Assembly: GCF_016907835.1 (NCBI RefSeq) | Contig: NZ_JAFBCT010000001.1 | Span: 3,658,001-3,722,000, forward strand | Reading direction: 5' to 3' | Length of the DNA stretch: 64,000 bases | Source of the DNA: Agromyces cerinus | GTDB lineage: Bacteria; Actinomycetota; Actinomycetes; Actinomycetales; Microbacteriaceae | Part shown: piece by piece, positions 41,940-53,871 of the stretch | How positions within the stretch are numbered: position 1 is the stretch's first letter | Layout: each line of letters begins with the position of its first letter | Translations under genes and position numbers: made by a program | The notes under the pieces: model-generated | The model's database searches: none | What the model saw: the letters and a program-made list of their open reading frames with translations, nothing else | Told to the model about the DNA's origin: nothing

Positions 41940-43511
41940 CTAACGCCCGAACGGTTCGATGTGGCGCAATTTCACGGCGGTGATCACGGCGAGGACCGCC
42001 ATGATCGCGGCGGCGATCAGCGCCGCCGTCTGTATGCCGGAACTGTAGGCGGTCGCCGCTGCGGCGCGCAGTGCGTCATCACCCGACGACGTCGCGAGCT
42101 CGACGGCTCGGGCGATGCTCTCCGAAGCGATGGCACGGTCAGCAGGACTCAGGCCGGGAATGGGCGGAAAGCCGAGGCGGTACACCGCGGTCACGATGCT
42201 CCCGATCACGGCGATCCCGAGCGCGTATCCGAGCTGCCCGCTGGTTTCGGAGGTGGATGCCGCGGATGAAGCCTGTTCCAACGGTACGGATCCGATGATC
42301 AGGTTGGTGCCGAGCGTGGGCAGCGGGGTGGCGCCGAAGCTCACGATGCTGAAACCGAGGACGAGTGGCCACGGTCCGCTCGCCGGACTGACCTGGGTCA
42401 TGACGACGAGGCCGACGACGGTCAGCGCCAGCCCGGCGCTGATCACGATTCCTGGCCGGATGCGCCGCGCGATCAACGGCATCACGATGAACCCGGCGAT
42501 GCTCACGATCGCGGGCGGCACGGTGAGGATGCCGGCTGCGAGCACGTCGACTCCCGAGACCAGTTGGAAGAACTGCGTGTTGAGCATCATCATCGGTCCC
42601 GTGAGCATCGTCATCGCGAACAGGCTGAACAGCACCAGTCCGAAGCCGCGGGTGCGGAACATCGTCAGATCGAGCAATGGCGCCCGGCGTGCGTCGCCGT
42701 CGAGCTGCTGCTGACGTCGGATGAACACCGCCGCGAACATGACGCCGAGCAGGATCGCGAGAGCGGGACTCCACTGGATGCCGGCTCGCGCGAACTCCTT
42801 GAGGCCGTACACCACTGGGAGGATCGACGCGAGGGAGAGTGGCACGCTGACCCAGTCGACCCCGCGTCGTGGCTGCCCGGCATCGACAGCCGCTCCGACG
42901 TTCGCGCCCGTCTGGTGACGTCGCTCCGGAACCAGGAACGGGAACATCGCGAGCACGAGCGCCATGACGGGCACCGCGAGCAGGAACACCGATCCCCATC
43001 GGAACGAGCTCAGCATGACGCCGCCGACGAGCGGTCCGATGATCATGCCGCCCATGAGGCAGGTCATGAACACGCCGAGAGCTGCCGACCGCTGCCGGTC
43101 GTCGCGGAACAGCCCGGTCAGCAGTCCGTACAGCGATGGAGTGAGTGCCGCGGCCCCGATGCCGGTGATCGCACGCGCGGCGATCAGCACTTCGGGCGAC
43201 GGCGCGAACGCCGCCACGGCCGAGGCGACCCCGATCGTCGCGGCGCCGATCACTGCCATCCGGCGCCGCCCCAATCGGTCGGCGAGGCTCCCGAACGCCA
43301 CGAGGAATCCTGCAAGGGCGAACCCGTACGCGTCGACGATCCACAACTGCTCGCTGGCGTCGACGTCCAGATCCGCCGCGATGCTCGGCAACGCCAGCAG
43401 CACCACCGACGTGTCGATGGCGACGACCAGGGCCGCGAGTGCGAGGACCGCCAGCCCAGACCACTCTCGTATTCCCGCCCGCTCGTGCACTCCCGTTGTC
43501 GTCGCCGTCAT
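41940..43511 (-). CDS. MFS drug exporter (DHA2, EmrB/QacA type)
   Basis: 523 residues with about fourteen membrane spans. Motif A is GSLADRLGRRRM, and the antiporter motif C region lies in span 5 (GVFMTCLMGGMIIGPLVGG). It probably exports hydrophobic compounds by proton antiport. The ATG at 43511 has an AGGAGG site, better than an upstream in-frame codon at 43544. The gene starts just inside a long palindrome (43531-43562), a likely operator, although no regulator gene is adjacent. Confidence 0.9.
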   Translation of the reverse strand: MTATTTGVHERAGIREWSGLAVLALAALVVAIDTSVVLLALPSIAADLDVDASEQLWIVDAYGFALAGFLVAFGSLADRLGRRRMAVIGAATIGVASAVAAFAPSPEVLIAARAITGIGAAALTPSLYGLLTGLFRDDRQRSAALGVFMTCLMGGMIIGPLVGGVMLSSFRWGSVFLLAVPVMALVLAMFPFLVPERRHQTGANVGAAVDAGQPRRGVDWVSVPLSLASILPVVYGLKEFARAGIQWSPALAILLGVMFAAVFIRRQQQLDGDARRAPLLDLTMFRTRGFGLVLFSLFAMTMLTGPMMMLNTQFFQLVSGVDVLAAGILTVPPAIVSIAGFIVMPLIARRIRPGIVISAGLALTVVGLVVMTQVSPASGPWPLVLGFSIVSFGATPLPTLGTNLIIGSVPLEQASSAASTSETSGQLGYALGIAVIGSIVTAVYRLGFPPIPGLSPADRAIASESIARAVELATSSGDDALRAAAATAYSSGIQTAALIAAAIMAVLAVITAVKLRHIEPFGR

Positions 43512-43530
43512 GGTGTTCCTCCTCTTCGCC

Positions 43531-43562
43531 GGTGTCTCCGACACGTCGTGGTCGGAGACACC
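43531..43562. promoter_or_regulatory. Perfect 12-8-12 inverted repeat upstream of the MFS gene
   Basis: GGTGTCTCCGAC (43531-43542) and GTCGGAGACACC (43551-43562) flank ACGTCGTG. Located 20 nt before the MFS ATG, it could be an operator for an unlinked TetR-like protein, or a hairpin in the leader. Confidence 0.65.
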
Positions 43563-43626: not shown

Positions 43627-44559
43627 CTACGCGGCAGGCCGCCGGGCTGCGAGTGCTGCAGCGTCGTGGACCGCTTCCCCGAACGCGAGCGGCGCCTCCT
43701 GCGGGAGGTTGTGGCCGGCGTGCGGCACCTGTCGATGCTCGTGCGGGCCGACGAAGCGAGCGCCGGCGGTGGCGGCGTCTCGTGCAGGGAAGTTGCCGTC
43801 GGCGAGTCCGTCGAGCGTGATCGCAGGCACGGTGATCGAGGGAAGCTGCGCCAACTGCGCCTCGAGACGGGAGTACTCCGGTGCGCCTGGCACGTGGAAG
43901 AGCCGGTGCCGGTAGGAGTGGATCACGACATCGACGAAGTCGGGGTTGTCGAATGCCGACGCGGCACGGTCGAGTTCAGCATCGTCGAAATCCCAGTCGG
44001 GGGAGTTGCGTCGCCAGATCACCTCCGCGATTCCGCGACGGTTCTCGGTCAATCCGGCGCGGCCGCGCTCGGTGAGGAAGTAGAAGAAGTACCAGAAGCC
44101 CGCCTCGAGTTCCGGGCGAATGGGCTGCAACGAGGCGCTGATGTCCTGGATGAGGTATCCGTTGACGGAGACGAGGGCGGTGACGCGTTCGGGCCGGAGT
44201 GCCGCGACGACGCACGCCGCGCGACCGCCCCAGTCGTACCCCGCGAGGATCGCCTCGGGAATCCGGAGGGCGTCCATGAGTTCGATGACGTCCTGTCCCA
44301 GTGCGGCCTGCTGCCCGCTGCGTGGGACGTCGGTGGTGCGGAAGCGGGTGTCGCCGTGCCCGCGGAGGTAGGGCACGATGACGCGGAAGCCTGCGGCGGC
44401 CAGGCTCGGTGCCACGTCGACGTAGCTGTGGATGTCGTAGGGGAATCCGTGCAGCAGCAGTACCGGCTGCCCGTCTTCGGGCCCCGCTTCGAAGTAGGCG
44501 ACGTCGAGGTGCGTCGTCTCGACGTGTCGCAGCGGCTCGAGTCGACATGTCGCGCTCAT
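43627..44559 (-). CDS. Alpha/beta hydrolase (epoxide hydrolase/dehalogenase-like)
   Basis: 310 residues. The oxyanion turn is HGFPYDIHSY, the nucleophile elbow AGYDWGGRAA with Asp as nucleophile, and the catalytic histidine lies in HAGHNLPQEAP. An Asp nucleophile is typical of epoxide hydrolases and haloalkane dehalogenases. The substrate is not known. It has an ECF41-like promoter at 44638-44663, sharing the divergent gap with the hydrolase at 44795. Confidence 0.88.
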   Translation of the reverse strand: MSATCRLEPLRHVETTHLDVAYFEAGPEDGQPVLLLHGFPYDIHSYVDVAPSLAAAGFRVIVPYLRGHGDTRFRTTDVPRSGQQAALGQDVIELMDALRIPEAILAGYDWGGRAACVVAALRPERVTALVSVNGYLIQDISASLQPIRPELEAGFWYFFYFLTERGRAGLTENRRGIAEVIWRRNSPDWDFDDAELDRAASAFDNPDFVDVVIHSYRHRLFHVPGAPEYSRLEAQLAQLPSITVPAITLDGLADGNFPARDAATAGARFVGPHEHRQVPHAGHNLPQEAPLAFGEAVHDAAALAARRPAA

Positions 44560-44637: not shown

Positions 44638-44663
44638 GACCGGACAGGGCGCGCGGTTGTGAC
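44638..44663 (-). promoter_or_regulatory. ECF41-type promoter for the hydrolase at 43627-44559
   Basis: GTCACA (44663 to 44658) - 14 nt - CCGGTC (44643 to 44638), reading on the minus strand, ends about 79 nt before the ATG. It has the same architecture as five other sites in this island, including the one before sigJ. Confidence 0.7.
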
Positions 44664-44700
44664 GCTCGGGCGGTGGGGCCGGCTCCGCTGCGCCCGCGGC

Positions 44701-44726
44701 GTCACAGAGCGGTGCGCCGCCCGGTC
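44701..44726 (+). promoter_or_regulatory. ECF41-type promoter for the hydrolase at 44795-45745
   Basis: GTCACA (44701-44706) - 14 nt - CCGGTC (44721-44726), ending 68 nt before the ATG. It is back to back with the minus-strand copy 38 bp away, so both divergent hydrolase genes would be switched on together. Confidence 0.7.
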
Positions 44727-44794
44727 GTAGTGGGCAGGGGCATCCGCCGGATGCGCCCGGTCACACGACCGACTCGATCTGAAGGGCACCGATC

Positions 44795-45745
44795 ATGAAC
44801 ACGCACGTTCTCGACAGCGAGGCGCAGGCGATCGCCGACGCGACCTCGACACCCCCGTTCCTCTACCAGCTCGGCGCGGACGGCGCCCGGAAGGTCCTCG
44901 ACGACCTGCAGGCCGCCCCGATCGCGAAGCCCGATGTCGACGAGGAGTGGATCACCGTCCCCGCCGCCGTCGGCGACGTGCAGGTGCGGATCGTCAAGCC
45001 GGTCGGCTCGACCGGCCTGCTGCCGACGATCCTCTACATCCACGGCGGTGGCTGGGTCATCGGCAACGCAGCGACCCATGACCGACTCGTGCGCGAGATC
45101 GCCGTGGGGGTCGACGCCGCGGTGGTCTTCGTCGAGTACGACCGCTCGCCGGAGGCGAAGCATCCGGTCGCCATCGAACAGGCGTACGCCACCGCCCAGT
45201 GGATCACGCGTTCCGGCGCCGAGAAGGGGCTCGATGCGACGCGTCTGGCCGTGGCCGGCGACTCGGTCGGCGGGAACATGACCGCGGTGGTCGCCATCCT
45301 CGCGAAGGAGCGCGGCGACGTGTCGTTCGTGCACCAGTCGCTCTACTACCCCGTGACCGACGCCGCCCAGGACACCGACAGCTACCGCGAGTTCGCCGAC
45401 GGCCCGTACTTGTCGGCCGCAGCCATGGCGTGGTTCTGGGACAGTTACCTGCCGGATGTCGCGAAGCGGGCGGAGATCACGGCCTCGCCGCTTCGCGCGA
45501 CCATCGAGCAGCTGACGGGCCTCCCCGAGGCGTTCCTGATCACCGACGAGAACGACGTGCTCCGCGATGAGGGCGAAGCGTATGCGCGGCGCCTCTCCGA
45601 GGCCGGCGTGCGCACCACGAGCGTGCGCTACAACGGCACGCTGCACGACTTCATGATGCTGAACCCGCTCCGCCCTTCGCCCGCCGTCACGGCAGCGGTC
45701 GAGCAGGCGGTGCACGTGCTCCGGAAGGCCCTCGGCCGCGCCTGA
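44795..45745 (+). CDS. Alpha/beta hydrolase of the hormone-sensitive-lipase type
   Basis: 316 residues. The oxyanion motif HGGGW and nucleophile GDSVGGN are typical of HSL-family esterases, with acid EAFLITDENDVLRDEG and histidine NGTLHDFMML. It likely hydrolyses short-chain esters in the cytosol. It has a GAAGGG site and an ECF41-type promoter. A strong hairpin follows the stop. Confidence 0.92.
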   Translation: MNTHVLDSEAQAIADATSTPPFLYQLGADGARKVLDDLQAAPIAKPDVDEEWITVPAAVGDVQVRIVKPVGSTGLLPTILYIHGGGWVIGNAATHDRLVREIAVGVDAAVVFVEYDRSPEAKHPVAIEQAYATAQWITRSGAEKGLDATRLAVAGDSVGGNMTAVVAILAKERGDVSFVHQSLYYPVTDAAQDTDSYREFADGPYLSAAAMAWFWDSYLPDVAKRAEITASPLRATIEQLTGLPEAFLITDENDVLRDEGEAYARRLSEAGVRTTSVRYNGTLHDFMMLNPLRPSPAVTAAVEQAVHVLRKALGRA

Positions 45746-45754
45746 GCACGATGA

Positions 45755-45786
45755 CGACCCGGTGGGCGATCGTGCCCACCGGGTCG
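45755..45786. terminator. Bidirectional terminator hairpin
   Basis: CGACCCGGTGGGC (45755-45767) and GCCCACCGGGTCG (45774-45786) form a perfect 13-bp stem around GATCGT, between the convergent esterase (ends 45745) and acetyltransferase (ends 45830). Confidence 0.75.
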
Positions 45787-45829
45787 AGCTCGTTCACGCA
45801 CCGGAGCCCATGAACGAGCGTCACTTCGC

Positions 45830-46282
45830 CTATGTGCTCGCCCGGTTCGGTCCCAACAGGTCTGCGTACTCGCGATGCTCGGCGATGAACGCCGCGACGA
45901 CCGGACACCGCACGGTGATGCGCAGCCCCCGTTCGCGGATGTCGTCGAGCGCGTCCGCGATGAGGTCGTCGGCGATGCCGCGCCCGCGGAACTCGGGCAC
46001 GACGGTCGTGGTGAGCACGATGATGCGGTCGTCCGCGACGTCGTAGCGGAAGCTCGCGATCTGCCTGCCGTCGATGGTCGCGGCGTAGACCCGCTCATCG
46101 ACGTGGTGCAGCACCCGGATCTCGGATTCGGTGTCCGCCGAGGGTCGGTCGACCTCGTGGACGGTGCGGGCCGTCGCCTCGTCGATGACGGCCACCGTGC
46201 CCTCGTCGAGGAAACCGGTGCCATCGGGGTAGCCGGCCGAATCGGGATACTCGATCGGCCCGATGTCGTTGCCTGCGTTCAT
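45830..46282 (-). CDS. GNAT-like N-acetyltransferase (YjdJ type)
   Basis: 150 residues. The acetyl-CoA motif VVPEFRGRGIADDLI, followed by CPVVAAFIAEHREYADLL, is typical of the small YjdJ-type GNATs. The N-terminal 60 residues are a non-conserved acidic extension. The ATG at 46282 has a GAGGAGG site. A minus-strand ECF41-type promoter lies about 155 nt upstream. The substrate is unknown. Confidence 0.85.
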   Translation of the reverse strand: MNAGNDIGPIEYPDSAGYPDGTGFLDEGTVAVIDEATARTVHEVDRPSADTESEIRVLHHVDERVYAATIDGRQIASFRYDVADDRIIVLTTTVVPEFRGRGIADDLIADALDDIRERGLRITVRCPVVAAFIAEHREYADLLGPNRAST

Positions 46283-46436
46283 CGCGTCCTCCTCTGTCCG
46301 AAACACTGGTCGTGACAGGCATCGGCGGCGGGTGGGACCAGCCGTGCTCTGCTTGGCGCATACCTCCGGAGAGGCCGCCTGAAACCCGGTGCTCCCGCTC
46401 TTGCCTCACGGCTCGGCCGAGCCTGTCACGAGCAAT

Positions 46437-46462
46437 GACCGAGTGGACGTGCGAGTTGTGAC
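46437..46462 (-). promoter_or_regulatory. ECF41-type promoter for the acetyltransferase
   Basis: GTCACA (46462 to 46457) - 14 nt - TCGGTC (46442 to 46437) on the minus strand. The gap to the start is longer than at the other sites (about 155 nt). Confidence 0.6.
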
Positions 46463-46486
46463 GCGGCGACCCGAAACCCGGTCCCG

Positions 46487-46512
46487 GTCACAATCCGCCG
46501 CCGTGCCCGGTC
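46487..46512 (+). promoter_or_regulatory. ECF41-type promoter for the hydrolase at 46567-47304
   Basis: GTCACA (46487-46492) - 14 nt - CCGGTC (46507-46512), 54 nt before the ATG. It is divergent from the minus-strand copy only 25 bp away. Confidence 0.7.
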
Positions 46513-46566
46513 TGAGCTGATATCGCGTCCGCACCGGGTGGATGCGGTTCGAGAAGGGGAACAGCC

Positions 46567-47304
46567 ATGTCAGATCAGAAGCCGACCGTCGTGCTCGTGC
46601 ACGGCGCTTTCGCCGAGTCCGCCAGCTGGAACGGCGTCATCGCGGCGCTCTACGCCGAGGGGATGACCTCGGTCGCGGTCGCCAACCCGCTCCGCAGCCT
46701 CGCCGGTGACGCCGCCTACGTGCGCGATGTCATCGCCTCGATCGACGGGCCCGTGGTGCTCGTCGGCCACTCGTACGGCGGCCTCGTGATCAGCGAGGCA
46801 TCCGCAGGCAACGACCAGGTCGCCGGCCTCGTGTACGCCGCGGCGTTCGTGCCAGAACCCGGCGACAGCGCCTTCTCGCTCTCGGCGAGCGAGCCCGGCT
46901 CGACGCTGGGCGACGCCCTCGACGCGCGCCCCATCTCGACGGGCGGCAACGAGTTCGTGATCCGCCGCCCCGCCTTCCACGACCAGTTCGCCGCCGACGT
47001 GCCCGTGCAGGTCGCGGGCCTGATGGGTGCGACCCAGCGTCCGGTGACCGAGGCGGCGCTGACGGACGCCGTGCAGGCGACGATTCCCGGTTGGAAGGAC
47101 CGCCCGTCATGGCACGTCTTCGGCAGCGAGGACCGCAACATCCCGGTCGCCGTGCACCGCGCGGGCGCCGAGCGCGCGGGCTCGCGCGGCACGACCGAGC
47201 TCACGGGTACCTCCCACGCCGTCAGCGTCTCGCAGCCCGAGGCGGTGGCCGCCACGATCCTCGACGCCGTGCGCGAGGTGAGCGGCAATCGAGTGGCCGC
47301 GTAG
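46567..47304 (+). CDS. Alpha/beta hydrolase (serine esterase type)
   Basis: 245 residues. The opening VVLVHGAFAESASWNGV and nucleophile elbow VGHSYGG show a serine hydrolase of the EstA/methylesterase-like group. Catalytic His is in GTSHAVSVSQPEAV. The ATG has a GAAGGGG site. It carries an ECF41-type promoter and lies just upstream of sigJ. Confidence 0.9.
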   Translation: MSDQKPTVVLVHGAFAESASWNGVIAALYAEGMTSVAVANPLRSLAGDAAYVRDVIASIDGPVVLVGHSYGGLVISEASAGNDQVAGLVYAAAFVPEPGDSAFSLSASEPGSTLGDALDARPISTGGNEFVIRRPAFHDQFAADVPVQVAGLMGATQRPVTEAALTDAVQATIPGWKDRPSWHVFGSEDRNIPVAVHRAGAERAGSRGTTELTGTSHAVSVSQPEAVAATILDAVREVSGNRVAA

Positions 47305-47325
47305 GCGGCGTTCGTGAATCGCTGC

Positions 47326-47360
47326 CGGGTGCGCGGTCGACTGCCGGTCCCGCGCACCCG
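47326..47360 (+). terminator. Hairpin after the serine hydrolase gene
   Basis: CGGGTGCGCGG (47326-47336) pairs with CCGCGCACCCG (47350-47360) around a 13-nt loop, 22 nt past the stop and ahead of the sigJ promoter. Confidence 0.6.
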
Positions 47361-47408
47361 CACCACGCGATGCATGTCAGAGATCCTGAATGGAATCTCG
47401 CGGATCTC

Positions 47409-47434
47409 GTCACAACTGCGCGGGCTCTCCGGTC
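47409..47434 (+). promoter_or_regulatory. ECF41-type autoregulatory promoter of sigJ
   Basis: GTCACA (47409-47414) - 14 nt - CCGGTC (47429-47434), 50 nt before the sigJ ATG. Identical architecture to the other five sites points to autoregulation. Confidence 0.75.
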
Positions 47435-47484
47435 TCAGTTGGAAAGGACTGCTGTCGTCCTCCACCGACTGACAGGATCAGAAC

Positions 47485-48366
47485 ATGGAAGCGAACCTCG
47501 ACGAGGCGCTCGCCGCCTTCCAAGCCGTGCGCGGGCGGCTCTTCGGCATCGCATACCGCATGCTCGGCAGCGCCAGCGAGGCCGAGGACATCGTGCAAGA
47601 GGCGTGGTTGCGATGGCAGGGCACCGACCGCACGGTCGTGCAGGACCCGCCGGCCTTCCTCGCGACGGCAACGACTCGCCTTGCGATCAACGCCTTGCAG
47701 TCGGCGCGCAGCCAGCGTGAGACCTACATCGGCCCGTGGCTGCCCGAGCCGGTCGATACGAGCGCGGACCCGACGCTCGGCGCCGAGCGTGCCGAGGCGT
47801 TGGGCTTCGCCGTGCTCGTCATGCTCGAGCGCCTCACCCCGACGGAGCGGGCCGCCTACGTGCTGCGCGAGGCGTTCGCGTACCCGTACGAGCAGATCTG
47901 CGAGATCGTGCAGGTCTCCGAGGCTGCGGCCCGCCAGCTCGTCTCGCGTGCGCGGAAGCACCTCACCGGTGAACGCCGACGCGAAGTGCCCCAGTCCGAA
48001 CAGCGGCGGCTCCTCACCGCGTTCCTGGCCGCGGCGAAGACCGGCGACCTCGTGCAGCTGGAGCGTTTGCTCTCCGAGGACGTCGTGTCGTACACCGATG
48101 GCGGCGGGGTCGTGCGCGCCTCCAAGTTCCCCGTGGTCGGTCGCGAGCGTGTCGCGAAGTTCGTGCGCGCCTTCCACACGCATTTCTGGAACGGCGTGGA
48201 CATCATCGAGGCCGAGACGAACGGCCAGGCGTCGGTGATGCTCTCGAAGGACGGCGCCACCTTCGCCGTGATCACCCTGGTGATCGGTGCACAGGGCATC
48301 GATCAGGTCCTGTGGATGATGAACCCCGGCAAACTCGGGGCTGCGACCGCTCGTGCCGCCGGATGA
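47485..48366 (+). CDS. sigJ: ECF41-type RNA polymerase sigma factor
   Basis: 293 residues. Region 2 includes FGIAYRMLGSASEAEDIVQE, and region 4 contains YPYEQICEIVQVSEAAARQL. The C-terminal roughly 120 residues are a SnoaL/NTF2-like domain with DGGGVVRASKFPVVG and the final NPGKL motif, both diagnostic of ECF41, where this domain controls activity in place of a separate anti-sigma factor. A small NTF2-like gene overlaps its stop. Nearby genes (oxidoreductases, NmrA-type epimerase-like proteins) match the usual ECF41 context. A copy of the six-site motif precedes it. Confidence 0.94.
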   Translation: MEANLDEALAAFQAVRGRLFGIAYRMLGSASEAEDIVQEAWLRWQGTDRTVVQDPPAFLATATTRLAINALQSARSQRETYIGPWLPEPVDTSADPTLGAERAEALGFAVLVMLERLTPTERAAYVLREAFAYPYEQICEIVQVSEAAARQLVSRARKHLTGERRREVPQSEQRRLLTAFLAAAKTGDLVQLERLLSEDVVSYTDGGGVVRASKFPVVGRERVAKFVRAFHTHFWNGVDIIEAETNGQASVMLSKDGATFAVITLVIGAQGIDQVLWMMNPGKLGAATARAAG

Positions 48367-48718
48367 CCTCGCCGCTCGTCTCCTCGTCGCATGGGAACGA
48401 CGGGACGAGGTCGCACTCTCGAGCGTGCTGCACCGCGATGTCGTGCTGATCGTCGACTCCGGCGATGAGACCGGCGGCGAACTCTGCGGCCGCGTCCGCG
48501 TGATCCGCGCGCTCGGTGCGCAGCTGACCCGGTATGCGGATGTCTCGCTGCAACCCGTGCACGTCAGCGGGCGCTCCGGCATCGCCCTCCGCCGCGACGG
48601 CGGCGAGGTGGTGGGAGTGCTGAGCCTCGACGGTGCGGAGCCGATCGGTGCACTCTGGCTCTCGACGGCGCCTGCGAAGCTCGCGCACTGGAACCGTCGA
48701 CGCCCCGACATCTGCTGA
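48353..48718 (+). CDS. NTF2/SnoaL-like protein encoded at the end of sigJ
   Basis: 121 residues from a GTG at 48353 that overlaps the sigJ stop by 14 nt. The pattern LAARLLVAWERRDEVALSSVLHRDVVLIVDSGDE and the later VLSLDGAEPIGALWLS match an NTF2/SnoaL-like alpha+beta fold, similar to the sigJ regulatory domain. Translational coupling suggests it works with SigJ, perhaps as a ligand sensor or decoy of the C-terminal domain (inference). Confidence 0.7.
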   Translation: MPPDDLAARLLVAWERRDEVALSSVLHRDVVLIVDSGDETGGELCGRVRVIRALGAQLTRYADVSLQPVHVSGRSGIALRRDGGEVVGVLSLDGAEPIGALWLSTAPAKLAHWNRRRPDIC

Positions 48719-48743
48719 TACCCGGCGACTCCTCATGCGCGTG

Positions 48744-49253
48744 TCAGCCGCGCGCGTTCCTCCCGGCGCCACCCGCTGCCGACCGGGGCGGCTGCGCGCG
48801 CATGACCGCCGAGACGAGACCGAGCAGTCGGGAGAGCTCCTCGCGGTCCGTCGGGTCCAGCGCATCGACGAGCACCGCTCGGACGACCTCGATGTGCCCG
48901 GGAAGCACGCGTTCGAGCCGGGCGACGCCCTCCGCAGTGAGGATCACGTTGACGCTTCGCTCGTCGTCGGAGGACGGTTCGCGCACCACGAGTCCGGCTT
49001 GCTCGAGTCGATCGACCTGGTAGGTCAGACCGCTGCGGCTGTGCACCAGCCGGTCGGCGAGTGCGGTCATCGTGCTCCGCCTCGATGCGTCCTCACCGAG
49101 GATCGCGAGGATCTGGAACTGCGTGAAGCTCAGACCGCCGTCATCGCGCAATTGTCGTGCCACGCCGTGCTGCACGAGGGAGCTCACCTCGAGGAGCGAG
49201 AAGTAGACGCCGAACTCGGGAGGCAGCGCAGGAGGCACGGTTGGGGCGGACAT
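48744..49253 (-). CDS. MarR family transcriptional regulator
   Basis: 169 residues with the MarR winged HTH (MTALADRLVHSRSGLTYQVDRLE and the beta wing PSSDDERSVNVILT). It is divergent from the Old Yellow Enzyme gene, with palindromic operators in the 98-bp gap, and therefore very likely represses that gene and itself. Ligands are often phenolic or quinoid compounds. Cys is absent, so it is not an OhrR-type redox sensor. Confidence 0.93.
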   Translation of the reverse strand: MSAPTVPPALPPEFGVYFSLLEVSSLVQHGVARQLRDDGGLSFTQFQILAILGEDASRRSTMTALADRLVHSRSGLTYQVDRLEQAGLVVREPSSDDERSVNVILTAEGVARLERVLPGHIEVVRAVLVDALDPTDREELSRLLGLVSAVMRAQPPRSAAGGAGRNARG

Positions 49254-49275
49254 AACGCGATCCTACGAAGAAGTT

Positions 49276-49300
49276 CGTTCGAATTGGAAATAATCGAACG
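49276..49300. promoter_or_regulatory. MarR operator candidate near the MarR gene
   Basis: CGTTCGA (49276-49282) and TCGAACG (49294-49300) form an inverted repeat with an 11-bp spacer, just upstream of the MarR start. Confidence 0.6.
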
Positions 49301-49311
49301 AGCATCACTGT

Positions 49312-49343
49312 TTCGAATTCGTAGCAAGTAATTCGAATTCGAA
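49312..49343. promoter_or_regulatory. Paired TTCGAATTCG palindromes upstream of the Old Yellow Enzyme gene
   Basis: TTCGAATTCG (49312-49321) and TTCGAATTCGAA (49332-49343) are self-complementary and spaced 20 bp start to start, so they lie on the same helix face. The second overlaps the ribosome site (GAAGGAG) before the ATG at 49352. Confidence 0.65.
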
Positions 49344-49351
49344 GGAGTGTC

Positions 49352-50434
49352 ATGACGAAGACAGACATCGAGACCACGCAGGCGTTGTGGGCGCCGACGC
49401 GACTTGGCCGCATCCCGCTCGCCCACCGCCTCGCGATGGCACCGATGACCCGGAGCCGGGCCACAGGCGACGGGCTCGTGACCAGGCTCACGCAGACCTA
49501 CTACGCCCAGCGCGGGTCGCTCGCGATGCTCATCACCGAGGGGACCCAGCCGTCGGAAGACGGGCAGGGCTACCTGGCGACGCCCGGCATCCACAACGAG
49601 GCCCAGGCCGAGGCCTGGCGTGACGTCGCCACCGCGGTCCACGAGGCTGGATCGACGCTCGTCATCCAGCTCATGCACGTCGGCCGAGTCGCCCACCCCT
49701 CCAACACGCCGCACGGCCGGGCTCCACTCGCCCCATCGGCGATCGCCGCACAGGGCGACATGTTCACCGCGGCCGGGCCGCAGCCCATGGCCCTGCCGCG
49801 TGAGATGAGCGGAGCCGACCTCGAGCAGACGATCGCCGACTTCCGGCATGCCGCCCGTCTCGCGGTCGACGCCGGAGCCGACGGCGTCGAGATCCACGGC
49901 GCGAACGGCTACCTCCTGCACCAGTTCGTGAGCACCAACGCCAACCGCCGCGTCGACGGATACGGCGGAGACATCTCGGGCCGCGTCCGCTTTCCGGTCG
50001 AGGTCGCGACCGCGGTCGCCGAGGAGATCGGTGCCGACCGGGTCGGCTATCGCATCAGCCCCGGCAGCCCGCTCGGCGACATCGTCGAGGACGACGTCGC
50101 CGAGATCTACGGCGCGCTCGTCGACGCGCTCGCTCCGCTCGGGCTCGCCTACCTGCACGTCGTGCATCTCGGCGACGAGGTGCTGCTGCGCGACATCCGC
50201 GATCGCTGGGCAGGAGGGCTCGTGCTCAACCGAGCCGGCGCCGACATCGACCGCCGCGTGCAGGACCTGCGCGACGGACTCGCCGACGTCGTGAGCGTCG
50301 GTGCCCTCGCGCTCGCGAACCCGGATCTGCCCGCCCGCATCCGGGCCGGAGCATCGATGAACGCGCCAGACCTGTCCGCTCTCTACGGCGGTGGAGAGCG
50401 CGGGTACACCGACTACCCGCGGCTCGCCGCCTGA
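49352..50434 (+). CDS. Old Yellow Enzyme family alkene reductase
   Basis: 360-residue FMN enzyme of the OYE/NemA group. The substrate-binding pair is in VEIHGANGYLLHQF, and NANRRVDGYGGDISGR and the N-terminal MAPMTRSRA are also typical. Such enzymes reduce activated C=C bonds of electrophiles with NADPH. The divergent MarR gene and the operator palindromes suggest induction by an electrophile. It is followed closely by a quinone-oxidoreductase-like gene. Confidence 0.95.
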   Translation: MTKTDIETTQALWAPTRLGRIPLAHRLAMAPMTRSRATGDGLVTRLTQTYYAQRGSLAMLITEGTQPSEDGQGYLATPGIHNEAQAEAWRDVATAVHEAGSTLVIQLMHVGRVAHPSNTPHGRAPLAPSAIAAQGDMFTAAGPQPMALPREMSGADLEQTIADFRHAARLAVDAGADGVEIHGANGYLLHQFVSTNANRRVDGYGGDISGRVRFPVEVATAVAEEIGADRVGYRISPGSPLGDIVEDDVAEIYGALVDALAPLGLAYLHVVHLGDEVLLRDIRDRWAGGLVLNRAGADIDRRVQDLRDGLADVVSVGALALANPDLPARIRAGASMNAPDLSALYGGGERGYTDYPRLAA

Positions 50435-50470
50435 TCATCCACGAACCATCCAGACGAAAGGAACCGCATC

Positions 50471-51406
50471 ATGCGCGCCATCCGATACTCCGCCTACGGC
50501 ACCCCGACCGTGCTCGAAACCGTCGAGGTACCCCGTCCCGTCGCCGGCCCCGGCGAGGCCCTCGTGCGAGTCGCGGGCACCACGTTCAACCACGTCGACG
50601 CGACCATCCGCACCGGCGCCCTGGCGAACGCCTTCCCGATCGAGCTGCCCCACACTCCCGGCATCGACCTCAGCGGCACCGTCGTCGCCATCGGACCGGG
50701 TGTGGCCGGCGACCTCGTCGGCCGGAACGTCATCGCGTTCCTGTCCATGACCGCCCCGGGTGCGGCGGCCGAATACGTCACCGTGCCGGCCGATTCGCTC
50801 GCCCCGGCTCCGGAGTCCGTTCCCCTGCCGGACGCGGCCTCGCTCGCGTCGAGCGGACTCACCGCATGGCAAGCCGTCGAGTCGGCCGGTGTGCGCCCCG
50901 GCCAATCGGTGCTCGTGAACGGTGCCGGCGGCGGGGTCGGCGCCTTCGTCGTGCAACTCGCCGCACGGGCCGGTGCGACGGTGATCGCGACGGCCGGTGC
51001 GCGCAGCCGCGACGCCGTGCTCGCGCACGGTGCGAGCGAGGTGATCGACTACACCGAACGCTCCGTGGTGGACACGATGAGCCGGCCGGTCGACGTCGTC
51101 GTGAATCTCGTGCGAACGACGCCCGAGGAGACCGCGGCGCTCGTCGCGCTCGTCGAGCCGGGCGGCGCGTTCGTCTCGACGACGACACCGGGCGTCGCGC
51201 CCGCAGGCACGGGGATTCGCACCGTGAGCGTCTTCGCACGCAGCGATGCCGCCCAGCTCGCTCGGCTCGCGGACCTGGTCGATGCAGGGGAACTGCACCT
51301 CGATGTGAGCGCTCGCCACCCGCTGAAGGACCTTGCCCGGGTGCACACGCTGGCTCAGGCCGGGGCACTGCGCGGAAAGGTGCTCCTCACGCCGACCGAG
51401 TGGTGA
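50471..51406 (+). CDS. NADPH:quinone oxidoreductase-like MDR protein
   Basis: 311 residues of the MDR family lacking the structural zinc cysteines, with the Rossmann motif NGAGGGVGAFVVQLAARAGA and the closing HPLKDLARVHTLAQAGALRGKVLL. It probably reduces quinones or enones with NADPH. It is co-transcribed with the OYE gene (36-bp gap and a GAAAGGA site). Confidence 0.9.
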   Translation: MRAIRYSAYGTPTVLETVEVPRPVAGPGEALVRVAGTTFNHVDATIRTGALANAFPIELPHTPGIDLSGTVVAIGPGVAGDLVGRNVIAFLSMTAPGAAAEYVTVPADSLAPAPESVPLPDAASLASSGLTAWQAVESAGVRPGQSVLVNGAGGGVGAFVVQLAARAGATVIATAGARSRDAVLAHGASEVIDYTERSVVDTMSRPVDVVVNLVRTTPEETAALVALVEPGGAFVSTTTPGVAPAGTGIRTVSVFARSDAAQLARLADLVDAGELHLDVSARHPLKDLARVHTLAQAGALRGKVLLTPTEW

Positions 51407-51439
51407 CAGAGGGCGGCGACGGCGAATTCACTCACACTC

Positions 51440-51465
51440 GTCACAGATCGGATGGGAGTCCGGTC
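51440..51465 (+). promoter_or_regulatory. ECF41-type promoter for the NmrA-like pair
   Basis: GTCACA (51440-51445) - 14 nt - CCGGTC (51460-51465), 52 nt before the ATG at 51518. It would drive the two NmrA-like genes and perhaps the SDR gene. Confidence 0.7.
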
Positions 51466-51517: not shown

Positions 51518-52279
51518 ATGAAGATCGTCGTCATCGGAGGCACCGGCCTCATCGGCTCGAAGGTCGTCGAACACCTCATCGAGCACGGCCACGAAGCCGT
51601 CGCCGCCTCTCCGAACTCGGGCGTGAACACCATCACCGGCGAGGGCCTCGCCGAAGTGCTCGTGGGCGCGAACGTCGTCGTCGACGTGTCGAACTCGCCG
51701 TCGTTCGCCGACGACGACGTGCTCGCGTTCTTCACCACGTCGACCTCGAATCTGCTCGAAGCCGAAGGTGCTGCCGGCGTGACCCATCACGTGGCGCTCT
51801 CGATCGTCGGCGCCGAACTCCTGCCGAACAGCGGATACCTGCGCGCCAAGGTCGCGCAGGAGCAGCTCATCGAGGAGTCGGGGCAGCCGTACTCGATCGT
51901 GCGCGCGACGCAGTTCTTCGAGTTCGTCGGACGCATCGCCGACGAGGCGACCGTCGACGGCGTGGCACGTCTCAGCACGGGACTCATGCAACCGATCGCG
52001 GCAGCGGATGTCTCGGCCGCCGTCGCCCGCGTCGCCGCCGGCGACCCGATCAACGGCACCCTCGAGATCGGCGGGCCCGAGCGCTTCGGCCAGGACGAGT
52101 TCGTGCGCGTCGGCATGGCAGCCAAGGCCGACCCCCGCACCGTCATCGGCGACCCTGAGGCACCGTACTTCGGCACGAAGCTCACCGGCACCGAACTCGT
52201 GCCCCTGAGCGAGGGCGCGCAGCTCTCGACGACGAGGTTCAGCGACTGGCTCGCAGGCCAGTCGGCGCCGGTGAAGTAG
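51518..52279 (+). CDS. NAD(P)-binding NmrA/epimerase-like protein 1
   Basis: 253 residues of an extended-SDR (NmrA-like) fold with nucleotide motif GGTGLIGSKV and conserved HHVALSIVG and QPYSIVRATQFFEF. Proteins of this type act as NAD(P)H sensors or small-molecule reductases. The next gene is a clear tandem paralogue 6 bp later. It is a likely ECF41 target through the upstream promoter. Confidence 0.88.
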   Translation: MKIVVIGGTGLIGSKVVEHLIEHGHEAVAASPNSGVNTITGEGLAEVLVGANVVVDVSNSPSFADDDVLAFFTTSTSNLLEAEGAAGVTHHVALSIVGAELLPNSGYLRAKVAQEQLIEESGQPYSIVRATQFFEFVGRIADEATVDGVARLSTGLMQPIAAADVSAAVARVAAGDPINGTLEIGGPERFGQDEFVRVGMAAKADPRTVIGDPEAPYFGTKLTGTELVPLSEGAQLSTTRFSDWLAGQSAPVK

Positions 52280-52285
52280 CCCGCC

Positions 52286-53071
52286 ATGCGCATCTCGGTC
52301 ATCGGCGGCACCGGTCTCATCGGCACCCGACTCGTGGCGCGGCTCATCGGCGCCGGCCACGACGTCGTCGTGGCGTCGCGCGCGACCGGCGTCAACTCCT
52401 ACACCGGCGAGGGGCTCGAGGAAGCACTCGCCGGTGCGGAGGTGCTCATCGACGTCTCCAATTCCGACTACCTCGACGAGGCGGCCGCGAACGAGTTCTT
52501 CTACGGCTCGACGCTGAACCTGCTCACCTACGGCGCCGCGGCGGGTGTCGCCCACCACGTGGCGCTCTCCGTCGTCGGCACCGACCGGCTCGCCCGCACC
52601 GAAGGAGGGTACTTCGCCGCGAAGGCGGCGCAGGAGCGGCTCATCCGACAGTCGGGTCGTCCGTACTCGATCGTGCACGCGACCCAGTTCTTCGAGTTCA
52701 TCGCGAACATCGCCGATGCGGGTACGAGCCGCAACGTCGTGCGGCTCTCCCGGGCGCTGTTCCAGCCGATGGCCGCCGACGACGTCGCCGCCGCCGTCGC
52801 GACGGTCGCCGTCGGGGCACCGGTGAACCGGGTCCTCGAGTTCGCCGGCCCCGAGCAGTTCCGGCTCGAGGAACTCGTCCGCCGTCGGCTGCGCGATCGC
52901 AACGACCTGCGCGACGTGAAGGTCGACCCGCTAGCCCGCTACTTCGGCACCGACCTCGAGGAGCGCGAGTTGCTTCCCGGCCCCGACGCGACGATCGCAA
53001 CGACCCGATACGAGGACTGGATCGATGCCGGTGGCCGCCCGAACGTCGCACTCGAAGGCAGGTCGGCGTAG
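52286..53071 (+). CDS. NAD(P)-binding NmrA/epimerase-like protein 2 (tandem paralogue)
   Basis: 261 residues, similar to the upstream protein throughout: GGTGLIGTRL, then GVNSYTGEGLEEALAGAEV and HHVALSVVG. It diverges most at the C terminus, where it is longer. The tight spacing suggests a recent duplication followed by divergence, giving either a heterodimer or two substrate ranges. Confidence 0.88.
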   Translation: MRISVIGGTGLIGTRLVARLIGAGHDVVVASRATGVNSYTGEGLEEALAGAEVLIDVSNSDYLDEAAANEFFYGSTLNLLTYGAAAGVAHHVALSVVGTDRLARTEGGYFAAKAAQERLIRQSGRPYSIVHATQFFEFIANIADAGTSRNVVRLSRALFQPMAADDVAAAVATVAVGAPVNRVLEFAGPEQFRLEELVRRRLRDRNDLRDVKVDPLARYFGTDLEERELLPGPDATIATTRYEDWIDAGGRPNVALEGRSA

Positions 53072-53109: not shown

Positions 53110-53871
53110 ATGAACTCCGAAGAGACGCTCGAGGCGCAACGCCCGCTCGAGGGGAGGGTCGTCCTCGTCACGGGGGCGTCATCCGGCATCGGCCGGGAGA
53201 CCGCCCTGGCACTGTCGAGGGCCGGCGCTCGCGTCGCCATCGGCGCCCGCCGCATCGACCGGCTCGCCTCCCTCGTCGACGAAGCGTCCGGCGAGGTCGT
53301 GCCCCTGCAGCTCGATGTCACCGACTCGGCGTCGGTGCAGCGCGCCGTCACCGAGACGGTCGGCCACTTCGGCAGGCTCGACGCGCTCGTGAACAATGCC
53401 GGGCTCATGCAGAGCGGCCTGATCCTCGGGGCGGACGTGCGCGAGTGGCAGCGCATGGTCGACACGAACCTGCTCGGCTCGATGTACGCGGTGCACGCCG
53501 CGCTGCCGCACCTCCTCGAGACGAAGGGTGCGGTCGTGCAGGTGTCGTCGACCGCCGCACGGTCGGCCTCCCTCGGCAGTGGCGTCTACGCCGCCACGAA
53601 GTTCGGCATCGGCGCATTCGCGGAGTCGCTGCGTCAGGAGGTCACCCGTCAGGGCGTTCGCGTGATCGTGATCCAACCGGGCTTCGTCGACACCGAGCTC
53701 ACGAGCCACATCACCGATCCGACCATGCAGGCCGCGGCGGCCGACATCGCCGCGTCGATGCGCACGCTCCGGCCCGACGACATCGCCGCGGCGATCGTCT
53801 ACGCGCTCGGCCAGCCCGAGCACGTCTCGGTCAACGAGATCCTGGTGCGCCCGACCGACCAGGTGCGCTAG
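53110..53871 (+). CDS. SDR family NAD(P)-dependent oxidoreductase
   Basis: 253 residues of a classical SDR. TGASSGIG is the nucleotide motif, NNAG is present, and the catalytic Ser-Tyr-Lys is in VSSTAARSASLGSGVYAATK. The GARRIDR stretch after strand 2 suggests NADP preference. Probably part of the same operon as the NmrA-like pair (38-bp gap). The substrate is unknown. Confidence 0.93.
   Translation: MNSEETLEAQRPLEGRVVLVTGASSGIGRETALALSRAGARVAIGARRIDRLASLVDEASGEVVPLQLDVTDSASVQRAVTETVGHFGRLDALVNNAGLMQSGLILGADVREWQRMVDTNLLGSMYAVHAALPHLLETKGAVVQVSSTAARSASLGSGVYAATKFGIGAFAESLRQEVTRQGVRVIVIQPGFVDTELTSHITDPTMQAAAADIAASMRTLRPDDIAAAIVYALGQPEHVSVNEILVRPTDQVR

Follow-up and report, generated by a model that had tools for sequence, protein, structure and literature searches.

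The sigJ cluster and its predicted promoters

We analysed a 64,000-nucleotide stretch of the Agromyces cerinus genome (the window, meaning that whole stretch), in which a gene for the sigma factor SigJ lies among hydrolase, acetyltransferase and NmrA-like genes, and in which an earlier reading had noticed six promoter-like sites of one architecture, GTCACA-N14-YCGGTC, and proposed a putative ECF41/SigJ regulon. ECF41 sigma factors are widespread, and to our knowledge no inducing signal is known for any of them. Our analyses suggested that the window very probably holds a self-contained local SigJ regulon; the proposal is well supported because the sites are confined to the sigJ neighbourhood, track sigJ within the genus and are found again upstream of the same genes in relatives. 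In addition, the sigJ operon has a second gene, overlooked in the original prediction, for a free SnoaL-like domain. The genes and predicted promoters are listed below; promoter entries give the number of gene-bearing stretches with the site, among 32 stretches of the genus (30 sigJ ortholog loci including the window, and two extra stretches from two of those genomes).

43627..44559, minus strand: HydA, alpha/beta hydrolase (Pfam PF00561, E 7.5e-22)
44638..44663, minus strand: predicted SigJ-type promoter of HydA (-35 GTCACA, N14, -10 CCGGTC); site in 8 of 13 gene-bearing stretches
44701..44726, plus strand: predicted SigJ-type promoter of HydB, forming a back-to-back pair with that of HydA; site in 7 of 7 gene-bearing stretches
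44795..45745, plus strand: HydB, alpha/beta hydrolase of the hormone-sensitive-lipase family (PF07859, E 6.5e-69; LipP1 model, E 3e-84, under its cut-off)
45830..46282, minus strand: GNAT acetyltransferase (Pfam PF14542, E 3.6e-20)
46437..46462, minus strand: predicted SigJ-type promoter of the GNAT gene, with -10 TCGGTC and a long leader; site in 11 of 13 gene-bearing stretches
46487..46512, plus strand: predicted SigJ-type promoter of HydC, forming a back-to-back pair with that of the GNAT gene; site in 18 of 19 gene-bearing stretches
46567..47304, plus strand: HydC, alpha/beta hydrolase (Pfam PF12697, E 4.4e-22)
47409..47434, plus strand: predicted SigJ-type promoter of sigJ, suggesting autoregulation; site at 24 of the genus's 30 ortholog loci
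47485..48366, plus strand: SigJ, ECF41-type sigma factor with a fused SnoaL-like C-terminal domain (TIGR02957, 340 bits, cut-off 323; PRK09636, 284 bits, cut-off 271)
48353..48718, plus strand: standalone SnoaL-like open reading frame (ORF) with a GTG start, whose first 14 bp overlap the end of sigJ (TIGR02957 positions 168-280, E 4.8e-7)
51440..51465, plus strand: predicted SigJ-type promoter of NmrA1-NmrA2-SDR, a putative operon judged by spacing; site in 29 of 29 NmrA1-bearing stretches
51518..52279, plus strand: NmrA1, NmrA-like NAD(P)-binding protein (Pfam PF13460, E 2.9e-9)
52286..53071, plus strand: NmrA2, NmrA-like NAD(P)-binding protein, separated from NmrA1 by 6 nt (Pfam PF01370, E 1e-6)
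53110..53871, plus strand: SDR-like ORF, named by reading, which follows NmrA2 in the related locus L014 too (88% identity)

The six sites were found exactly at the coordinates first reported, the one at 46437 alone ending in TCGGTC and the other five in CCGGTC, and the two back-to-back pairs are present. Pfam and NCBIfam matches agreed with ORF placement that each site precedes the gene named for it. The base 5' of GTCACA is, in order, C, C, C, G, C and C, and the end of the -10 element lies 79 nt from the start codon of HydA, 69 nt from HydB, 155 nt from GNAT, 55 nt from HydC, 51 nt from SigJ and 53 nt from NmrA1. The NmrA transcript probably includes the SDR-like ORF as its third gene.

The window holds exactly six matches to GTCACA-N14-YCGGTC against 0.08 expected, and none of 100 shuffles gave six. 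A search of the whole genome (3,977,730 bases), proposed along with the regulon, returned only these six matches, all in one cluster of 6.8 kb at 44.6-51.5 kb of the window, so the scattered random occurrence that would have spoken against the regulon was not seen. The broader pattern GTCACA-N15-CKGTC recovered the same six sites only, and reversed control patterns had no exact match in the whole genome. Relaxing the spacer to N13-15 added a single match genome-wide, at 3152170 (N13). With up to one mismatch, 21 extra matches appeared across the genome, none of them inside the window; they are about background, since the reversed control gave 15.

SigJ belongs to ECF41 by every protein feature tested. 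Sigma2 and sigma4 matched PF04542 and PF08281 above cut-off, and the linker between them carries WLPEP (as YIGPWLPEP), the motif defined for ECF41 linkers in PMC3426412. The SnoaL-like extension of about 100 residues is covered by TIGR02957, which spans residues 11-286, and by PRK09636 (SigJ), above cut-off; PF12680 alone scored 21.2 bits on SigJ, below its cut-off of 27. The extension carries DGGG and NPGKL, the latter of the NPDKL type. The Mycobacterium tuberculosis SigJ structure (PDB 5XE7) matched residues 9-237 of the window's SigJ (E 2.9e-49), and a neighbour of COE type, NmrA1, stands under an ECF41-type site (51440). An Agromyces species and a strain catalogued as Leifsonia sp. Leaf264 carry the nearest named sigJ genes, at 88-90% identity.

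Promoter consensus of the SigJ clade

The published ECF41 promoter consists of TGTCACA, 16±1 bp and CGTC, and the two mapped -10 elements are TGTT or CGTC (PMC3426412). The six sites had been said to fit this description, and they do so in spacing and core: GTCACA-N16-NGTC is present in 6/6, and the ECF41 geometry is kept because GTCACA-N14-CCGGTC is the same as GTCACA-N16-GGTC. The fit fails at two bases, with C or G in place of T before GTCACA and GGTC in place of CGTC; for exact TGTCACA-N16-CGTC, 0/6 sites have the leading T and 0/6 have CGTC. This sequence is a consensus in the statistical sense and does not define membership of ECF41.

To place these differences in a wider setting, we used the best 80 of 574 confirmed sigJ relatives with named loci, a sample that is not random (1.556 Mb; 81 loci with the window). 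GTCACA-N16 was followed by GGTC 152 times, by TGTC 63 times and by CGTC once in the 80 named loci, and GTCACA-N16-[G/T]GTC gave 215 sites there against 1 for the reversed pattern. Every other spacing between 10 and 23 gave 0-6 sites per tail, except N11 (TGTC 26, CGTC 12), an excess that belongs to the extended -10 around [T/C]G[T/C]CC[G/T]GTC. The base before the -35 element in the clade's sites is T in 66% and C in 23%. The SigJ clade thus appears to read [T/C]GTCACA-N14-(C)C[G/T]GTC, which would make the window's six sites typical members. We also considered a -10 base 'dialect' particular to each sigma factor and rejected it: when the sites were compared by eye with the sigma phylogeny, GGTC and TGTC were mixed within many loci. 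A clean dialect is true for this genome, partly for the genus, and untrue for the whole clade.

Sites follow sigJ across Agromyces and recur in related loci

Sixty genomes of the genus were surveyed, an ortholog being a match of at least 75% identity with E 1.2e-140 or better. By this definition, 30/60 genomes have a sigJ ortholog; in the other 30 the best match was 1.0e-63 or weaker, and three had no match at all. GTCACA-N15-CKGTC occurred 153 times in the 30 genomes with sigJ and 26 times in the 30 without, and the reversed control gave 28 matches in all 60 (13 and 15, respectively). The difference in site counts gave a Mann-Whitney p of 7.6e-11, a value that ignores kinship and overstates independence because genomes of one genus are related. 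Across the 32 stretches there were 106 sites, seven of them without an assigned gene. Distances from site to start were mostly 50-60 nt (NmrA1 35-61, HydC 39-64, HydB 50-69).

In the 81 wider loci, gene starts were called with a simple purpose-made gene caller and accepted within 350 nt of a site. A plausible start was found for 209 of the 221 sites, at 40-59 nt in 85/209 and at 30-69 nt in 129/209. NmrA-like genes were the commonest targets (71 sites in 60 of the 81 loci), followed by sigma genes of all kinds (36 sites, 31 loci) and the HydC family (14 sites, 13 loci). Further sites stood before two oxidoreductase families (11 and 10), LtrA (8), HydB (7), CMD (5) and cytochrome b (5), where target clusters without a name were labelled from one scanned representative each. 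At least four sites were present in 19/81 loci, some of which have more than one sigma factor. A site lay right before the SigJ relative in 22/81 loci of the wider clade.

Divergent SigJ-type promoters with abutting -35 boxes (gap 0 or 1) were observed at L184:10316-10367 (TGTGACGTCACA) and L185:2448-2499, and in L026, L028, L033, L037, L056 (Kribbella) and L077. Two polymerases could hardly sit at such boxes simultaneously.

Other ECF41 sigma factors in the genome

Four ECF41-type sigma factors are encoded in the genome: the window's SigJ, those at 2,555,926 and 876,541, which score above the TIGR02957 cut-off, and one at 3,936,855, which scores below it (214 bits). Five canonical TGTCACA-N16-YGTC sites exist in the genome, all of them near the three others: one site beside 876,541, two by 2,555,926 (0.7 and 6.4 kb off) and two by 3,936,855. 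These sites precede CMD-like, cytochrome-b-like, epimerase-like and NmrA-like genes and the sigma gene itself, the first two labelled by likeness to scanned proteins and the remainder by reading. The two promoter sets do not overlap in this genome, and the differences between them may insulate SigJ from its paralogues. In the genus stretches, seven TGTCACA...GGTGTC sites were found, one of them before a sigma factor 41% identical to SigJ. The three paralogues of this genome form very long branches in the sigma tree, and their placement was not used.

Two side observations concern these paralogues. At genome position 2563169 (L186:11628-13097), a cytochrome-b-like gene has an ECF41-type promoter upstream of it, roughly 6 kb from the sigma gene at 2.56 Mb, and the cytochrome-b-like cluster of 5 genes comes after SigJ-type sites in 5 other loci as well. 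At 3937700-3937761 (L188), two canonical ECF41 sites face each other 8 bp apart, between the sigma gene and a divergent NmrA-like gene.

A free SnoaL-like domain in the sigJ operon

The ORF at 48353-48718 is, by its sequence, a free copy of the ECF41 regulatory domain. Its family profile matched residues 176-298 of SigJ 5XE7 (E 4.8e-13), so that the closest solved sequence is the SigJ C-domain, and the ORF was modelled with an NTF2-like fold (AlphaFold2, pLDDT 90.7). In Foldseek, many NTF2-like chains beat SigJ by E-value, and the query TM-score of SigJ, 0.70, was the highest among the 50 matches listed; when structures were ranked by Z, SigJ was only 14th, tied with many. Neither sigma2 nor sigma4 was found in the ORF or in its counterparts in the seven closest named loci (L008-L014), which are C-domain only. 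The ORF keeps the KL of the NPDKL element, which binds the sigma linker in ECF41 (PMC7730460).

The same 30/60 genus genomes that carry sigJ gave strong matches to the free domain, lying end to end with sigJ, a count that excludes eight further genomes with weak matches (about 32 bits or less); in two of the 30 (G219 and G248) one TGA lies inside the matched stretch. In the wider sample the free domain directly follows the sigma gene in 32/81 loci. Loci that have the free domain did not differ clearly in the sigma NPxKL motif from those that lack it, and DGNG was commoner with it (19/32) than without (13/48).

Diverged sigma factors and a possible origin of the free domain

Models of sigma2, sigma4 and the C-domain were built from 80 sigma factors (L034 is cut by a contig end), and all open frames of at least 60 aa in the loci were scanned. 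The slot after sigJ held a C-domain alone in 33 loci, one of them weak (L046), sigma2 plus C-domain without sigma4 in two (L025, L038), and a complete but diverged sigma factor in three (L039, L041, L048). Elsewhere in the loci, sigma2-plus-C-domain proteins without significant sigma4 occurred in L067, L074, L082 and L086, together with diverged sigma factors (e.g., L053, L060) and ordinary second sigma factors. As a side observation, L025, L038, L067, L074, L082 and L086, from several actinobacterial genera, carry apparent sigma-dead paralogues.

When 136 C-domains were placed in a tree, a single branch (99% SH-aLRT) united 32/32 standalone domains, 11/11 diverged-sigma domains, seven further free copies and 2/6 other sigma domains, and the 80 SigJ C-domains fell outside it. 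This grouping was not blind, because the 11 'diverged' and 6 'other' sigma factors had been sorted by hand with the standalone profile in view. Left out of the tree were L053 14179, L067 11122, L080 3010 and L086 3214 (partial C-domain), the cut L034, and the weak C-domain ORFs L046 and L081 11747. The motif PxKLxxW was present in 30/32 standalone domains, 10/11 diverged sigma factors, 4/7 further free copies and 1/6 other sigma factors; in 74/80 SigJ proteins its final position is V, A, L, I, Y or F. A DAED-like motif in sigma2 was retained by 79/80 SigJ proteins against 1/11 diverged sigma factors, and WLPEP was present in 2/11 of the latter. DAED contacts RNA polymerase (PMC8999054).

The simplest reading of these patterns would be that a duplicated sigma factor lost its sigma parts more than once and kept its SnoaL domain. 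Repeated loss appears more likely than repeated gain, and we infer the direction of decay. The free domain is probably the remnant of a second ECF41 sigma factor minus sigma2 and sigma4. In the literature searched, whose coverage was partial and leaves priority uncertain, we found neither the free domain nor decayed ECF41 sigma factors described.

Neighbouring genes

Between the sigJ operon and the NmrA promoter lies one further block:

48744..51406, mixed strands: MarR (minus), OYE-type FMN oxidoreductase (plus) and a quinone-oxidoreductase-like (QOR) gene; MarR and Oxidored_FMN by Pfam, QOR named by reading

The block has no SigJ-type site, even with one mismatch, and it was not found at the corresponding place in L008-L014. 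In 6/7 of these loci NmrA1 directly follows the sigJ operon, and L011 has NmrA1-NmrA2 before sigJ. The block is therefore an apparent insertion, and its genes, although inside the interval first described, fall outside the predicted regulon. A part for MarR in the regulon was ruled out because the block lacks a site and is not at that place in L008-L014. Between MarR and OYE, the AT-rich segment 49255-49350 has repeated TTCGAATTCGAA-like palindromes, likely a MarR operator separate from the SigJ regulon. On the other side, an MFS-transporter-like ORF (41940-43544, named by reading) lies on the same strand 82 bp 3' of HydA and may be co-transcribed from the HydA promoter.

Discussion

Taken together, the sites, their targets and the genes of the operon suggest the following working. 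SigJ would direct RNA polymerase to the six [C/G]GTCACA-N14-YCGGTC promoters and switch on the three hydrolases, the acetyltransferase, the NmrA-NmrA-SDR transcript and its own operon; that SigJ itself reads all six, its own included, we infer from their placement and conservation. The regulon might help the cell to process small molecules that are reactive or xenobiotic, because its predicted targets are hydrolases, NmrA/SDR-type reductases and an acetyltransferase. The fused domain of ECF41 sigma factors restrains the sigma factor: activity rose about 20- and 120-fold on partial truncation and was lost when the entire extension was removed (PMC3426412). The free domain, made from the overlapping gene, could pair with SigJ's fused SnoaL domain or with the WLPEP linker and set or reset sigma activity; it could keep SigJ inactive, release it from restraint through competition, or supply one half of a two-domain ligand site. 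Through the site before sigJ the circuit would feed back positively on itself, and the partner would serve as its built-in brake or trigger. On balance we favour, with some reserve, the free domain as a trans regulatory subunit of SigJ, of either negative or positive effect. A fuller scenario is offered tentatively, at somewhat less than even chances: stepwise decay would have occurred repeatedly (first the RNA polymerase-contact motif, then sigma4, then sigma2), the SnoaL remnant would have stayed in the sigJ operon to act in trans, as a subunit pairing with SigJ's SnoaL, sensing would need two different SnoaL domains, and the private multi-gene regulon would be insulated from the three paralogues.

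Several observations weigh against parts of this interpretation. The -35 and -10 elements are each one base off the published ECF41 consensus. A site directly before the sigma gene is absent at 6/30 genus loci and 59/81 wider loci, and HydA lacks a preceding site in 5/13 stretches having the gene. The paralogue at 2,555,926 has the -10 TGTC, and crosstalk is possible because this base is also common in the SigJ clade. No free domain directly follows the sigma gene in 49/81 loci (among them L034, cut by the contig end), and the presence of the domain changes at least nine times on the sigma tree. The C-domain tree, built on a single domain of about 115 residues, has many unresolved forks, and its 11 diverged sigma factors were chosen by the analyst. 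Furthermore, a non-regulatory role for the free domain is conceivable because NTF2/SnoaL folds are also enzymes and ligand binders.

Other explanations of the sites can be weighed against the same evidence. Chance or local composition would account for the scattered single matches found elsewhere, at least one in 91/199 family genomes, and yet it is practically negligible for the window, being refuted by the expectation of 0.08, by the clustering of all six sites and by their recurrence before the same genes in relatives. That GTCACA serves an ordinary transcription factor as an operator half-site, and is no sigma -35 element, is very improbable. Back-to-back sites can indeed make TGTGACGTCACA palindromes, with GTCACA boxes abutting without a gap in L184 and L185; against this, the sites are directional, keep one fixed spacing to [G/T]GTC that equals the ECF41 architecture mapped by 5'-RACE (PMC3426412), and show a narrow peak of start-codon distances, and the gaps in 50 divergent pairs vary from 0 to 125 nt. 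The promoters might also be of ECF41 type and be read by one of the three other ECF41 sigma factors, with which SigJ coexists in the genome; GGTC and TGTC both occur among promoters of the SigJ clade, and TGTC is also found at the sites of the 2.56 Mb paralogue. This too is improbable, if less so than the half-site, given that the six YCGGTC sites all lie round SigJ and the five TGTCACA-N16-YGTC sites all near the other three, and that 25 of the 30 genus genomes without an ortholog have another SigJ-like match (E 3.3e-37 or better), yet those 30 have only the 26 CKGTC sites in total.

Regarding the standalone protein, a small pathway enzyme or ligand scavenger with no hold on SigJ would suit the variety of its fold and is a minority possibility that deserves more weight than those above. 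Its nearest solved sequence, however, is the SigJ regulatory domain; it keeps the KL of the linker-binding element described in PMC7730460, its gene overlaps sigJ and co-occurs with it in 30/30 genomes, and its clade contains C-domains of diverged sigma factors. These points argue for a regulatory subunit of SigJ. The locus and its relatives argue for multi-gene local ECF41 regulons. They also supply, in the free domain, a definite candidate for a second protein, and the path by which a sigma factor could evolve into a regulator can be traced in them. In addition, the two non-overlapping promoter sets might serve as an orthogonal promoter/sigma system with natural controls.

The closest parallel is with the ECF41 sigma factors of Bacillus licheniformis and Rhodobacter sphaeroides (PMC3426412), which share with SigJ the sigma2-sigma4 core, the WLPEP linker, the fused C-terminal extension, a promoter close to GTCACA-N16-NGTC and a COE-type oxidoreductase/epimerase neighbour; there too the motif stands before some ECF41 genes. 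ECF41 sigma factors generally control a single gene or operon in that account, where the legend to Figure 2 also names hypothetical genes carrying the motif; the two sigma factors themselves are reported to control one gene or operon each. Such single control describes how these sigma factors behave and does not define the group. By contrast, six promoters are predicted here, which is in line with the original prediction of a regulon larger than one neighbour gene; the -10 is GGTC, the -35 has no leading T, and the sigma operon has a second, free regulatory domain. RpoE9 of Sinorhizobium meliloti, likewise an ECF41 sigma factor with a matching promoter motif, differs in having a single target, carboxymuconolactone decarboxylase (PMC6180224). 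An effect on more than one gene has already been indicated for some ECF41 sigma factors (PMC4821874, PMC8999054): M. tuberculosis SigJ, whose SnoaL domain is the closest to the free domain among solved relatives, is reported to act beyond its own neighbour in regulating sigI (PMC4821874), and an Azospirillum brasilense ECF41 sigma factor controls motility and lateral flagella, by a title cited in PMC8999054. As for the partner, SigG1-RsfG of Streptomyces tsukubaensis (ECF56) is likewise a SnoaL-fused ECF sigma factor with a small co-transcribed partner gene, and RsfG binds SigG1 as an anti-sigma factor (PMC7730460). RsfG has no conserved Pfam domain according to the same source, whereas the partner predicted here is SnoaL-like and akin to the C-terminus of the sigma factor itself.

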